From positions 1-64,000 of the forward strand of contig JAJRXC010000077.1 of assembly GCA_024276495.1 (NCBI GenBank): a stretch of DNA of 64,000 nt, in the 5' to 3' direction. The notes beneath the pieces were generated by a model. The model searched no databases, was not told the DNA's origin, and saw nothing but the letters and a program-made list of their open reading frames with translations. The position numbers and the translations under genes were made by a program. This DNA is from Actinomycetes bacterium. Lineage in GTDB: Bacteria; Actinomycetota; Acidimicrobiia; Acidimicrobiales; Aldehydirespiratoraceae. The first letter of the stretch is position 1; every line of letters starts with the position of its first letter. This document shows, one piece after another, positions 15,200-36,791 of the stretch.

Positions 15200-16111
15200 T
15201 CAGGTCTGCAGCGACAGCACCGCGTCGGCGAGGGCCTCCAGCTCGGCGTGCCAGTCGGCGGGTTCCCCGAACGGGAACAGCACGAACTTCGACGCGCCGA
15301 CCGAGATGTGCTCCTTCACGAGGGCGACGATCCGATCGTGGCTGGTCGCGACCACGTCGCGGGGGTCGGCATCGGGTTTGCGAGCGGCGACCCGATCCCT
15401 CACGACGTCGGGAATCTCCGACTCGTCCACGCCCGGAAGGTACGGGATCAACACGCCGTAGTGGCCGGGATCCATCGTCCGTCCGGCCTCGGCGGCCGCT
15501 TCCTCGATCATCTCGATCCCGTCGGCGACATGGCGCGGTGTGGTGAACGACGCGAGCCAGCCGTCGGCCAGTCGGCCGGTTCGTCGCAGCTCCGACGGCG
15601 CCTGCCCACCGAGCCAGACCTCGAACGGATCCTGGACGGGCTTGGGCAGCACCCGCGCTCCCTTCACCGTGAAGCGCTCGCCGTCGTGGTCGACCTCGTC
15701 CTCGGTCCAGAGTCGCCGCATCAGCGGCATGGCCTCCTCGAACCACGGCGCCCGTTCGGTGCGTTCCACCTGGAAGGCCTGATGTTCGGCGGTGTTGGCG
15801 ATGCCGAGCCCGAGCGCCGGATGGCAGCGCCCGCCGGAGATGACGTCGAGGCTCGCCAACATCTTGGCCATCAGGATCGGGTTGCGACCCGGCACGACCG
15901 ACACCGCAGGCCCGAACCGGAGCCGTTCGCTGCGCCCGGCCACGAATGCCATCGCCACGATCGGATCGAGCTGGGGGCTGTTGATGCGCTCGGGAAACCA
16001 GAGCGAATCGTAGCCGAGACGGTCGAGGTCATCGACCACACGCCCGAGCCCGTGGGGTTCGCCCAATAGCCGGGGGATCGCCCCGATGCCGTACCCGATT
16101 CGTACCTTCAT
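15200..16111 (-). CDS. LLM-class F420-dependent oxidoreductase
   Basis: 303 residues from the ATG at 16111 (MKVRIGYGIGAIPRLL); the frame extends 27 bases further without conserved residues. Luciferase-like TIM barrel: LDRLGYDSLWFPERI, SERLRFGPAVSVVPGRNPILMAKMLASLD, SGGRCHPALGLG. It probably uses F420; substrate unknown. It differs clearly from the F420 oxidoreductase near 2 kb, so the two are not a recent duplication. It ends against the DUF1501 gene (adjacent stops). Confidence 0.9.
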   Translation of the reverse strand: MKVRIGYGIGAIPRLLGEPHGLGRVVDDLDRLGYDSLWFPERINSPQLDPIVAMAFVAGRSERLRFGPAVSVVPGRNPILMAKMLASLDVISGGRCHPALGLGIANTAEHQAFQVERTERAPWFEEAMPLMRRLWTEDEVDHDGERFTVKGARVLPKPVQDPFEVWLGGQAPSELRRTGRLADGWLASFTTPRHVADGIEMIEEAAAEAGRTMDPGHYGVLIPYLPGVDESEIPDVVRDRVAARKPDADPRDVVATSHDRIVALVKEHISVGASKFVLFPFGEPADWHAELEALADAVLSLQT

Positions 16112-26431: not shown

Positions 26432-27322
26432 ATGTCCTCGTCGCCGCCGCTCGCATCGACGGTGGTGGCGTGGGCCCGCGGGAACCTGAGAGATCTGCCG
26501 TGGCGGCGAACCCGGGACCCGTGGCGCGTGTTCGTCGCGGAGATCATGCTGCAGCAGACCCAGGTCGCCCGGGTGGTCGATCGCTGGACGGGGTTCGTCG
26601 AGCGCTACCCGGACCCGGCGACGTGCGCATCGGCGCCGCAGGCCGAGATCGTGCGCGGCTGGGAGGGGTTGGGCTACAACCGCCGAGCGGTGATGTTGCA
26701 TCGGGCCGCGACCCGGATCGTTCGCGACCACGCCGGTGCGGTCCCCTCCGGGCTCGACGAGCTGTTGGCCCTTCCCGGGGTCGGGCCCTACACCGCCCGG
26801 GCGGTGCAGGCGTTCGCTTTCGAGGCGCCGGTCGCCCCGGTCGACACCAACGTCGGGCGGGTGCTGGCGCGCGTCGCGGGCCGAGGGCTGGCGCGGCGCG
26901 ACGCCCAGGAGTGGGCCGATTCCCTCGTGCCGGTCGGCGAGAGCTGGCTCTACAACCAGGGGATGATCGAGCTCGGCGCGATGATCTGCACGAAGCCCTC
27001 ACCGGACTGTGGGCGATGTCCGGTACGCGGTCGGTGCGCGTGGCGGGGCATCGGCGACGATCCGGCCGTCGGCTCCGCCGGGTCGAGTCGACCCCAGCCA
27101 CCGTTCACCGGCTCGGATCGCGAGCTGCGGGGTCGCCTGGTCGATGCGCTTCGGCGTTCGCCCGTGGGCGTCGGGTCGCTCGGTTCGGTGCTGGGCTGTC
27201 GCGACGTCGGCCGCGGCGAGGCAGTCGTCGCCGGCCTCGTCGAGGACGAGCTGATCGAATTGGAGGGAGGGGTGATCCGCCTGGTCGGAGAGCGGGTTAC
27301 TCGGGGCCGGTCAGTGAGCTGA
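26432..27322 (+). CDS. mutY: A/G-specific adenine glycosylase MutY
   Basis: 296 residues. HhH-GPD core with catalytic E37 (FVAEIMLQQTQV), hairpin LPGVGPYTARAV, catalytic D138 (VDTNVGRV) and the 4Fe-4S loop C186-x6-C193-x2-C196-x5-C202. It removes adenine opposite 8-oxoguanine. The usual Nudix-like C-terminal domain (about 130 residues) is reduced to about 90 residues of unclear homology, as in short actinobacterial forms. Its end overlaps the convergent selenoprotein gene by 26 bases. Confidence 0.93.
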   Translation: MSSSPPLASTVVAWARGNLRDLPWRRTRDPWRVFVAEIMLQQTQVARVVDRWTGFVERYPDPATCASAPQAEIVRGWEGLGYNRRAVMLHRAATRIVRDHAGAVPSGLDELLALPGVGPYTARAVQAFAFEAPVAPVDTNVGRVLARVAGRGLARRDAQEWADSLVPVGESWLYNQGMIELGAMICTKPSPDCGRCPVRGRCAWRGIGDDPAVGSAGSSRPQPPFTGSDRELRGRLVDALRRSPVGVGSLGSVLGCRDVGRGEAVVAGLVEDELIELEGGVIRLVGERVTRGRSVS

Positions 27323-27815
27323 GCAGGCCGGCGATCGCCTCGTCGGCGATCGCCACCATCTCCTCGTCGGTGCGATCCTGGATCGGGTGTTCGGTCAACA
27401 CGTGGGCGACGTCGAGACCGAGCGACTTCGACTGGTCGGCGGCGGCGCCGGCGAATTCGATGGTGGCCACGAAGACCCCCGGGATGCCCCTTCGTTCGAG
27501 ATCGTTGATGTCGTGCACACTGCACGTCGTGCAACTGCCTCAATCGGCGAGAGCTTCGATCACCGCGTCGCAGCTGGTGGCGATCTCGTGGCGGAGATCG
27601 ACCGGCGCCGGTTTCGTGAACGTGGGTTTCGAGAACCGTCTCACCGTGGCCCCGAGGCCGGTCAGCTTCTCCTCGACCCGGTCGAGAAAGACGTTTCCCC
27701 GGGGTTTGCTGATGTCGAGCAGGGCGACGGTGAGGCCGTTGAGCGACTCGGGCCGGGTGACCCGTTCGCGGGTCTCGGGCCGGAGCTCGCCGGTGGGGTC
27801 GAGAACTGTGGTCAT
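27297..27815 (-). CDS. UGSC-family selenoprotein (in-frame TGA at 27540-27542 read as Sec)
   Basis: 172 codons if the in-frame TGA is read as selenocysteine at residue 92, giving ALAD-U-GSCTTCS. Ordinary gene calling would stop at 91 residues or call a separate 73-residue piece from a GTG at 27518; neither is a complete protein. The two halves are in one frame with no gap and join exactly at the family motif UGSC. The first half has LLDISKPRGN and the second PGVFVATIEFA. A perfect hairpin (27512-27526) follows the TGA as a bacterial SECIS would. The ATG overlaps the stop of the thioredoxin-domain gene (ATGA). The family is known but uncharacterised; a redox role is inferred from Sec/Cys (U92, C95, C98). 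Confidence 0.85.
27512..27526 (-). promoter_or_regulatory. Candidate bacterial SECIS hairpin
   Basis: On the mRNA, CGUGCA-GUG-UGCACG forms a perfect 6-bp stem with a 3-base loop. The stem starts 13 bases after the UGA, and the loop opens with G 20 bases after the first codon base following UGA. Known bacterial SECIS elements need a hairpin with a G at the start of the loop 16-37 bases downstream. The small loop is at the low end of what is reported. Confidence 0.6.
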
Positions 27816-29260
27816 CTGACGATCTCCTTCGTGACGGTGACACTACCCATCTCGCCGGTCACCCACCCGGCGATGGCGGCCGAGAAGAGGCCGGCCTGGC
27901 TGCCGCCGTGCACGACATGGATGCCGTCCGGCGGGAACTTCGGAATCTGCATGCCCGCGACGAGGTCGGGCATGCCCTCGTCGATCCCGTCGACCCCGGC
28001 GATGACCGAATCTCCGTCGATGAGCAGATGGGAGCGCAGCTCGTCGAGAAACCGGGCCCGGTCCCATCCGGCGTCCCGGAAGCGGTTCATGTGCTCGGGG
28101 GAGAGCACGATGACGGTGTCGAACTGCATCAACATCCGGGGGCTCGTGTTGGCCCGGAGCATCTCCGCGAAGTGCTTCGTGAGCGACTCGGCCCGCCGCG
28201 ACTTCTGGTCGAACAACAGGCGGGGACCCTCGCCGGGAAAGAGGGTGACCGTCGAGACGTCCGGGTCGAATCCCCGGGACTGCGCGAACGACTCCCACGG
28301 CGAGCCCTCCTCGTCCTCCGCGAAGCACAAGCCGATCTTCGACGGGCTTCCCTGCGTCGCCCGGTCGACGCCGCCGGGTTTGCCGCCGCCGACGTTTCGG
28401 ATGACCAGTTGCAGCGCCCGGCCGATCGTGTTGTTGGCGCGATTCCCCTGGCCGAGGAGGTTGAAGCCGCTGTTCATGCCGATCTCGTGCCGGATGGGAC
28501 CGTTGACGATGAGGATCGGACCGACCGGCATCGTGGTGGCCAACAGGCCGTGCATGTTGAACTCGTCGGTGCAGGCGCCCTCCACCGCGGCGAGCACGAC
28601 GGGAAGGTAGTCGGGCCGACAGCCGGCCATCACCGCGTTGACCGCGACCTTCTCGACGGTGCACTCGACCAGGTCGGGGGGAACGATCGAGACGATGTCG
28701 TCGGGGGCGCGGCTGGTGCCCTCGAGCATTCGGAGCACCCGGGCCTCGGTGGGGGGCACGACCGGCAGGCCGTCGCTCCAGCCCCGGTCGTACATCGCCT
28801 CCCACTCGTCCTCGAGGGCCGCGATCTCGACACGTCGGCTCGTCAGCGTGGATCCGGAGAAGCGCACGGCGAGCTCGTCGGTGCGGGTGGGATCGACGCT
28901 GAGGGAGCCGCATCCGGGCCGCATGTCGGGGAGGTCGGATCCGAGGCCGGGGACACCGGTCAGTTCCTCCCACTGATCGCGCGACCAGCCGACGACCGTC
29001 TCGTCGGCGACACCGTCGGTCACCCGGAGCAGGGTCGGGACGGTCTCGATGTCGTGATGCCAAGAGAGGGCCAGGTCGTGATCGTGGCGGACCCAGTCGG
29101 CCCGGACGGGGAAGTCGGGGTCGTCCTGGCTGATCACGGTGAGGTTCGCCCGATCGGCGAGGTCTTCGAGGACGGGGGCCACCAGGACACAGGTGGGGCA
29201 GTCCCGCTTCACGATCGCGACGAGACCATCGGGCAGCGGTGGCGGAGACGATTCGGTCAT
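27812..29260 (-). CDS. Thioredoxin-domain protein fused to UGSC-associated domain
   Basis: 482 residues from the ATG at 29260. Residues about 10-100 are thioredoxin-like with a CPTC active site (C21, C24). DMRPGCGSLSVDP follows. The rest (about 175-480) is an uncharacterised domain with DGLPVVPPTEARVLRML, VAVNAVMAGCRPDYLPVVLAAVE and NTIGRALQLVIRNVGGGKPG. This domain is regularly found with UGSC-family proteins. The TGA overlaps the selenoprotein start (ATGA), so the two are made together. I infer a redox relay in which the CPTC thioredoxin part reduces the Sec protein, or the reverse. Confidence 0.7.
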   Translation of the reverse strand: MTESSPPPLPDGLVAIVKRDCPTCVLVAPVLEDLADRANLTVISQDDPDFPVRADWVRHDHDLALSWHHDIETVPTLLRVTDGVADETVVGWSRDQWEELTGVPGLGSDLPDMRPGCGSLSVDPTRTDELAVRFSGSTLTSRRVEIAALEDEWEAMYDRGWSDGLPVVPPTEARVLRMLEGTSRAPDDIVSIVPPDLVECTVEKVAVNAVMAGCRPDYLPVVLAAVEGACTDEFNMHGLLATTMPVGPILIVNGPIRHEIGMNSGFNLLGQGNRANNTIGRALQLVIRNVGGGKPGGVDRATQGSPSKIGLCFAEDEEGSPWESFAQSRGFDPDVSTVTLFPGEGPRLLFDQKSRRAESLTKHFAEMLRANTSPRMLMQFDTVIVLSPEHMNRFRDAGWDRARFLDELRSHLLIDGDSVIAGVDGIDEGMPDLVAGMQIPKFPPDGIHVVHGGSQAGLFSAAIAGWVTGEMGSVTVTKEIVR

Positions 29261-29372: not shown

Positions 29373-30245
29373 ATGGGGGACGACATCGGATCGGTCGACG
29401 TGTCTTTTCACGGTGTTCGGGGGTCGACACCGTGCAGCTGCCCGACGTTGCAGCGCTACGGCGGCAACACCAGTTGTGTGTCGCTCGAGGCAGCCGGCCA
29501 CGACCCCATCGTGTTCGATCTCGGTACCGGGATGCGGCCGTGGGGAAGGTCCATGCCACCGGAAGATCCCCTCACCCTCCATGCCCTCGTCACCCATTTC
29601 CACTGGGATCACGTCCAGGGGCTTCCGTTCTTCACCCCGCTCCAATCGGCGAACACCGCGTTGCACGTCTACGGGCCCGGCGATCGCGACGCCTCGATGG
29701 AAGACACATTCGGGCAGTTCATGTGCCCGCCCTACTTCCCGATCCGGGTCAGCGACCTTCCCGCGTCGGTCCTCTTCCACGACGCCCACTCGTCGGACTT
29801 CGAGCTCGACGGCACCGAGATCATGTCGCGGCCGGTGCCCCACTGCGGAAAGACCAACGGCTATCGCGTGACCCGCAATGGCGTGTCGGTCGCCTACATC
29901 CCCGATCATCAGGAGCCGATCGACCGATCGACTCACGTCGATCCGGCCGTGCTCGAGCTGTGCGCCGACGTCGACGTCTTGATCCACGACGCGCAACTGT
30001 GGAGCGACGAGCTGGCGGCGAAATCGACCTGGGGTCACTGCACCCCCGAATACGCGGTGGAGGTCGCCGCCCAGGCGGGCGTCCACACCCTGGTGCTGTT
30101 CCACCACGACCCGTCACACACCGATGAGGACCTCGACGAGATGAGCGAACGCATCGAGGCGACCGCGATCTCGCGCGGGATCTCCAACGTGATCTGCGCG
30201 ACCGAGGGCCTGAAGCTCTCGGTCGGTTCCCGCCACGGATCCTGA
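29373..30245 (+). CDS. MBL-fold metallohydrolase
   Basis: 290 residues from the ATG at 29373. The metal motif is THFHWDHVQGLPFF (HxHxDH), with further metal ligands in IPDHQEP and DVLIHDAQL. VSFHGVRGSTPC and YGGNTSCV at the start mark the ribonuclease Z / PhnP-like subgroup of hydrolases. It probably cleaves a phosphodiester or a related ester; substrate unknown. It is divergent from the thioredoxin/UGSC unit across 112 bases that hold a short AT-rich patch (about 29301-29323), a likely promoter zone. Confidence 0.88.
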   Translation: MGDDIGSVDVSFHGVRGSTPCSCPTLQRYGGNTSCVSLEAAGHDPIVFDLGTGMRPWGRSMPPEDPLTLHALVTHFHWDHVQGLPFFTPLQSANTALHVYGPGDRDASMEDTFGQFMCPPYFPIRVSDLPASVLFHDAHSSDFELDGTEIMSRPVPHCGKTNGYRVTRNGVSVAYIPDHQEPIDRSTHVDPAVLELCADVDVLIHDAQLWSDELAAKSTWGHCTPEYAVEVAAQAGVHTLVLFHHDPSHTDEDLDEMSERIEATAISRGISNVICATEGLKLSVGSRHGS

Positions 30246-35987: not shown

Positions 35988-36791
35988 TCAGAAGTCGTAG
36001 AGCTCGGTCGGGTTGTCGACCAGCACCCGGGTCCGGGTCCGTGGATCGGGGAGCCAGTGATGCTGGAGGCGGGCGAGCTCGGTCGGTGACGGCGGGTCGG
36101 CGCAGCCCGGATGCGGCCAGTTGGTCGCCCAGAGCAGCCGGTCGGGGGCGTGGGCCACGAGATGTTCGATGAGTGGGTCGAGGTCGGCGTAGTCGGGCGG
36201 TCCCGTTTCGGACGACTCGTACGGGGCCGAGAGCTTCACCCATCCCCGCCGGCTCTCGACGAGGCGCGCCAGCGCCCGGAAGCTCCGGTGGGTCGTGGGC
36301 ACCGGCGGCATGAAGCGGCCCACGTGGTCGACGACGACCTCCACCGGCAGCCCGATCAGCTGATCGATGCGGTCGGCGAGCTCGTTCCCGTCGAGTTGGA
36401 GCTGGATGTGCCAGCCGAACGGCGCGATCCGGTCGGCGACCGCCGAGAGGCAGTCCCATCGCAGCGCGCCACCCTCGAGCATGTGGAAACGGGCGCCGCG
36501 GGCGCCGAGCCCGGTCAACCGGGCGAGCTCGTCGTCGCCGACGTGCTCGTCGACGACGACGACGATGCGAGCGTCGCGTCCGAACTCGGCGGCGGCCGCG
36601 AGTTGGACCCGATTGTCGAGCCCGTACGTCGTCGGCTGCACGATCACGACCCGTTCGAGCCCGAGGTCGGCCTGCACACGGCGGTACTCCCCCGGAGTGG
36701 CGTCGGGAGGGTGGAGCCGCGCCGCGGGTGCGCTCGGGAATCGATGGTCGTAGAAGTGCATGTGCGTGTCGCATGCGCCGGTCCGGTTCAT
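35988..36791 (-). CDS. Amidohydrolase (lactonase / PDC hydrolase-like)
   Basis: 267 residues. The N-terminal metal motif is DTHMHFYDHRFP, typical of the amidohydrolase_2 group that includes L-fuconolactonase and 2-pyrone-4,6-dicarboxylate hydrolase. VVVDHVGRF and RLLWATNWPHPG are also family motifs. It probably opens a lactone produced by the SDR gene just downstream. Its ATG overlaps the stop of the D-2-hydroxyacid dehydrogenase upstream (ATGA). Confidence 0.87.
   Translation of the reverse strand: MNRTGACDTHMHFYDHRFPSAPAARLHPPDATPGEYRRVQADLGLERVVIVQPTTYGLDNRVQLAAAAEFGRDARIVVVVDEHVGDDELARLTGLGARGARFHMLEGGALRWDCLSAVADRIAPFGWHIQLQLDGNELADRIDQLIGLPVEVVVDHVGRFMPPVPTTHRSFRALARLVESRRGWVKLSAPYESSETGPPDYADLDPLIEHLVAHAPDRLLWATNWPHPGCADPPSPTELARLQHHWLPDPRTRTRVLVDNPTELYDF

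Follow-up and report, generated by a model that had tools for sequence, protein, structure and literature searches.

Results

Genes and features at the locus

Within the stretch of 64,000 nucleotides analysed here (the window), we located a minus-strand gene predicted to encode a small redox protein, a UGSC-family selenoprotein, together with a partner gene immediately upstream of it (Table 1). The UGSC frame starts at the ATG at 27815, and 91 residues precede an in-frame TGA (27542-27540). Beyond the TGA come seven sense codons (GGC AGT TGC ACG ACG TGC AGT) and then a 73-residue ORF that a mechanical search reports on its own, from GTG 27518 to TAA 27297, and that is the C-terminal part of the UGSC protein. 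Joined, these parts make 91+1+7+73 = 172 residues in one frame, with no frameshift. An earlier, sequence-only reading of this DNA had described just such an arrangement, two minus-strand pieces of 91 and 73 residues parted by a TGA and seven sense codons, and its coordinates and counts proved exact. Translation with the TGA read as selenocysteine (Sec) also reproduced the motif that it had proposed, ALAD-U-GSCTTCS, which occupies residues 88-99 (ALADUGSCTTCS); the UGSC motif itself is invariant across 34 aligned members. A genome search found the gene in single copy in its own genome. At its 3' end, it overlaps the convergent mutY-like gene by 26 bases (window 27297-27322).

Table 1. Positions of the features described in the text (window coordinates).
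Feature	Position	Strand	Remarks
UGSC-family selenoprotein CDS	27297..27815	-	172 aa including Sec92; stop TAA 27299-27297
Sec codon, in-frame TGA	27540..27542	-	Residue 92; TGA kept in relatives, exceptions TAG or Cys codons
Predicted bacterial SECIS hairpin	27497..27542	-	From the UGA onward; based on fold, nucleotide constraint and covariation
SECIS apical stem and loop (predicted)	27526-27521 with 27517-27512; loop 27520-27518	-	
SECIS loop bases (predicted)	G23 = 27520; U24 = 27519	-	Numbered with the U of UGA as 1
Partner gene	27812..29260	-	482 aa from ATG 29260; mechanical ORF opens at 29386
ATGA overlap of partner stop with UGSC start	27812..27815	-	
Thioredoxin-like domain of the partner	28985..29236	-	Residues ~9-92; profile against PDB thioredoxins, best E 2.3e-5
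MutY-like A/G-specific adenine glycosylase, convergent neighbour	26432..27322	+	Outside the UGSC system; profile matches

The joined protein belongs to a known family

We scored the joined protein against the two curated profiles for the family, reading the TGA as a residue. It matched NF041046 ('UGSC family (seleno)protein') with 144.9 bits (cut-off 125; E 1.8e-42) over profile positions 2-146 of 147, and PF24696 ('UGSC') with 140.9 bits (cut-off 25). Both scores lie above the curated cut-offs, and the sequence match is far above chance. Each match runs through the TGA as one stretch, in agreement with the earlier proposal that the 172 residues form one domain unbroken by a frameshift. The window gene is thus a well-supported new member of the known UGSC selenoprotein family, sharing with it the full-domain match, the exact UGSC motif and the position of the Sec.

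The sequence-only reading overstated the novelty of this gene. Zhang and Gladyshev described UGSC in 2008 as one of the major families of selenoproteins in the Global Ocean Sampling (GOS) data; with 255 Sec sequences in those data, it is an abundant environmental selenoprotein family (PMC2398784), and curated NCBIfam and Pfam profiles exist. Recent reviews list UGSC without a function (PMC13188914, PMC9312934).

The genome encodes the selenocysteine machinery

The 4.33-Mb genome from which the window derives contains every component of the selA, selB, selC and selD set that the earlier reading had proposed to look for: selA (394.9 bits; cut-off 267.9), selB (275.3 bits; cut-off 242.25), which adjoins selA on the same contig, selD (368.6 bits; cut-off 125) and a tRNA-Sec with the anticodon UCA (64.6 bits; gathering score 47). 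The selD gene carries an in-frame TGA of its own, in the context GUGCK (locus L018 1501-2418; genome G000, contig C48:14587-15504), so this genome has at least two selenoprotein genes. A rough scan of in-frame TGA candidates found no second selenoprotein in the window. The candidates at 35990 and 31340 mark ordinary gene boundaries. At 15202/15197 a convergent pair of genes terminates, each frame continuing into the antisense of the other gene.

The in-frame TGA is conserved, and is replaced by TAG together with the tRNA anticodon

We assembled a relatives' set of 100 genomes, from the same genome through its genus, family and order. UGSC matches occurred in 67 of the 100 genomes and, among the matches listed, nearly all contained exactly one TGA. 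A selA match accompanied UGSC in 65/67 positive genomes, versus 15/33 genomes that lacked UGSC (65/2/15/18; Fisher p 4e-9, a value that is indicative, as the genomes are related). Across 136 distinct UGSC sites, chosen by the C/U-G-S-C motif, the codon was TGA in 134 and a Cys codon in 2. Judged by their record titles, the loci that we fetched came from Actinomycetota, Acidobacteria, Chloroflexi, Myxococcota and Gemmatimonadota bins, and from Alpha-, Beta-, Gamma- and Deltaproteobacteria. The presence of TGA at the identical place in relatives argues that the codon at 27540-27542 is not a sequencing error, one of the outcomes that would have undone the earlier reading; another, a true stop in the homologues, is likewise countered by these sites.

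Two Geodermatophilaceae, a Blastococcus (locus L123) and a Geodermatophilus (locus L164), have TAG at the UGSC Sec site. We found that the tRNA-Sec of both has the anticodon CUA; ARAGORN labels this tRNA Pyl on the basis of the anticodon, and the Rfam model identifies it as tRNA-Sec. This switch to UAG, along with UGSC-motif proteins that show it, has already been reported in work that PMC5330540 cites. That one stop codon is exchanged for another in step with the anticodon of tRNA-Sec strongly indicates that this codon is translated.

A covarying SECIS hairpin follows the UGA

The predicted fold of the window mRNA from this codon onward has three elements: a stem in which the UGA itself takes part, an internal loop, and the apical hairpin CGUGCA-GUG-UGCACG. 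By itself, this hairpin folds no better than shuffled sequences (z -0.5 to -1.2), and an Rfam search at the hairpin gave no match. Because the single-sequence fold does not rise above the shuffles, we relied on comparative evidence.

Of 134 Sec genes, 122 have G-U at loop positions 23-24. For the prokaryotic SECIS, G23 and U24 have been named as loop bases (PMC8659212); unlike the element described there and the E. coli SECIS, which have a bulged U17, the UGSC family has C at this position. Ser at +7 is always encoded by AGT (114/114 Sec genes), and Cys at +7 always by TGT (8/8). The equally conserved (invariant) Ser at +2 uses AGT in just 23/134, and across eleven window genes AGT accounts for 3% of Ser codons. 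The two Cys-form homologues carry TCG and CTG at the loop codon. From these codon counts, the G23-U24 loop is fixed even where it costs rare codons.

The apical stem covaries. Among 30 distinct G-U sequences, 96% of cells were paired, and 0/2000 shuffles equalled this value (shuffle mean 90%). Most clearly, Trp TGG at +6 goes with GTC for Val at +8 in 13/13 genes, and Cys TGC with Val goes with GTG in 76/76, a compensatory change of the stem from TGC..GTG to TGG..GTC; these counts come from related sequences and are not independent events, and the changes fall in separate subfamilies. Further stem pairs combine TGT with CTA, in one sequence, and AGC or GGC at +6 with CTC at +9. These comparative sequence data are decisive for a SECIS hairpin after the UGA, and they give the earlier Sec reading of the TGA additional backing. 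The locus illustrates well that constraint on the loop and covariation in the stem can support Sec decoding with nothing but sequence to go on.

In natural fusions of UGSC to its partner (loci L079, L080, L083 and L091-L098), the SECIS-loop codons differ (GCC GTG ATG CGG), so the hairpin, if present there, has a shifted loop relative to that of unfused genes.

Together, these results indicate that the UGA at 27542-27540 is almost certainly decoded as Sec. They bear out the earlier reading: each of its refuting outcomes that could be put to the sequence data was answered in its favour. From established knowledge of the pathway, SelB would carry Sec-tRNA-Sec to the UGA, and Sec would be inserted at residue 92. 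The alternative is that translation really ends at the TGA, or that the TGA is a sequencing error, and that the gene is a UGSC pseudogene, decayed or truncated. In its favour are the mechanical ORF that stops at the TGA and the second start at GTG 27518, yet we reject this reading as extremely improbable, given an identical TGA common to several phyla, a frame conserved beyond it to the end, selABCD in the genome, synonymous constraint with stem covariation 3' of the TGA, and a TAG switch that goes with the tRNA-Sec anticodon switch.

UGSC is paired with a conserved partner

The earlier reading had noted an ATGA link between the UGSC gene and the gene upstream. We found this overlap, which probably reflects translational coupling of the two genes; what that reading missed is that the upstream gene is conserved as a partner. 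Among 105 loci in which both genes were found, UGSC lay directly 3' of the partner, on the same strand and within 165 nt, in 96. Several of the remaining loci are the fusions mentioned above, in which UGSC forms the N-terminal part and the partner domain the C-terminal part. Eight loci had a partner without an adjacent UGSC, and all eight of their genomes (8/8) carry UGSC elsewhere, with a TGA. No other conserved neighbours were seen in the loci sampled. In one Aquabacterium bin (locus L153 4992-6509), selA directly follows the partner-UGSC pair.

The thioredoxin-like domain of the window partner has the sequence CPTC at residues 21-24 and, among the aligned loci, was present in the UGSCTTC subfamily only. 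The remainder is a conserved core of ~340 residues from an unnamed family, which had no match in a Pfam profile search and whose invariant residues include Asp163, Gly164, Cys214, Arg274, Arg281 and Asp299. In 2008, UGSC was reported as fused to 'Unknown_1', a conserved domain (PMC2398784). Unknown_1 is probably the partner core domain, and the pairing probably the same. Fused forms also occur among the present loci; the window differs in having two separate, ATGA-coupled genes and a partner with an extra thioredoxin domain.

From these observations, we conclude that the window gene is very probably a UGSC gene that decodes Sec and shares an operon with its partner. Since the two genes lie side by side in most loci and are fused in others, their proteins, on this genomic evidence, probably form one two-subunit selenoenzyme.

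Predicted structure and remote similarity

The AlphaFold2 model of the UGSC protein, built with 34 window and locus sequences, had a mean pLDDT of 92.4. It shows five strands alternating with helices and places Sec92 just before the helix 93-108. Its best fold matches were flavodoxin-like, lumazine synthase, receiver-domain and similar alpha/beta folds, and no thioredoxin folds were among the fold matches listed; a sequence search of the PDB with the UGSC profile gave no hit. The predicted fold is parallel alpha/beta and not obviously thioredoxin. A thioredoxin-like fold for UGSC was suggested in 2008; the model makes it less likely, and a fold's absence from the matches listed is not decisive against it.

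For the fusion protein of the same genus (locus L083), the model had a pLDDT of 83.8 and a pTM of 0.87, which suggests a defined domain arrangement in the fusion. For the partner domain, a fold search with this model gave nothing beyond weak and unreliable matches, the best being class I fumarate hydratase (E 1.1e-3, TM 0.17-0.28).

We also found a weak local similarity between UGSC and GrdB, the glycine reductase selenoprotein B (TIGR01917/TIGR01918), over ~43 residues around the Sec (E 5.8e-5); it was seen in 25/34 UGSC members. The score, 22.2 bits for a local match only, is far from the 602.2-bit cut-off for GrdB, and the proteins differ in length (172 residues for UGSC, ~431 for GrdB) and in partner. 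The similarity is a weak lead for the chemistry of UGSC and does not indicate family membership.

A two-subunit selenoenzyme as a possible function

A concrete two-subunit hypothesis for UGSC follows from its conserved partner, from the natural fusions and from the fold prediction, and it is in this arrangement and in the function of UGSC, rather than in a new family, that the interest of the locus lies. That UGSC and its partner make up one two-subunit enzyme is, in our judgement, likely. More tentatively, the Sec chemistry may be GrdB-like, with the partner as the substrate subunit. Sec92 would sit at the N-terminus of the helix that follows strand three in a parallel alpha/beta domain, where it and Cys95 (U-x-x-C) could form a selenenylsulfide, with Cys98 as a third thiol in the UGSCTTC subfamily. 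The partner core domain would supply substrate binding, and its fused thioredoxin domain (CPTC) would reduce the oxidised Sec centre, such that the pair would act as a GrdB-like, thioredoxin-linked selenoreductase. Equally tentative is the broader proposal that the pair is a widespread selenoenzyme, so far unrecognised, in which a flavodoxin-like domain carries a GrdB-like Sec centre and is joined by a substrate domain from a new family and, in the UGSCTTC subfamily, by a thioredoxin module.

The UxxC motif and the thioredoxin domain on the partner would also suit a general thiol-dependent peroxidase or disulfide oxidoreductase with Sec inserted and a thioredoxin-like fold, to which the partner brings only reducing power. 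We consider this somewhat unlikely: the confident AlphaFold model alternates beta and alpha elements and best matches flavodoxin-, receiver- and lumazine-synthase-like folds, and conservation in the partner is highest in its core domain, which is kept in paralogous pairs and in fusions without the thioredoxin domain. Retention of the core where the thioredoxin domain is missing suggests that the partner does more than supply electrons.

It is improbable that UGSC is not a catalytic reductase and instead binds or delivers selenium or a metal, as in selenium handling. The placement of a UGSC gene ~5-11 kb from selA in several related genomes, and of selA after the UGSC gene in the Aquabacterium genome, fits such a role, but in the relatives' set a selA match occurs without UGSC in 15 genomes, which argues that UGSC is not part of the Sec machinery, and in the loci sampled the pair has no other conserved neighbour.

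Variation within the family

Compared with other UGSC proteins, the window protein stays inside the family and is set apart by its UGSCTTC subfamily motif, with a third Cys, and by a partner with a fused thioredoxin domain. A further subfamily, with the motif UGSCSSGS or UGSCSSSS (loci L021-L027 and L029-L031), has selA at the distance given above in several of its genomes, and its members carry a C-terminal extension with a CAEC-type motif.
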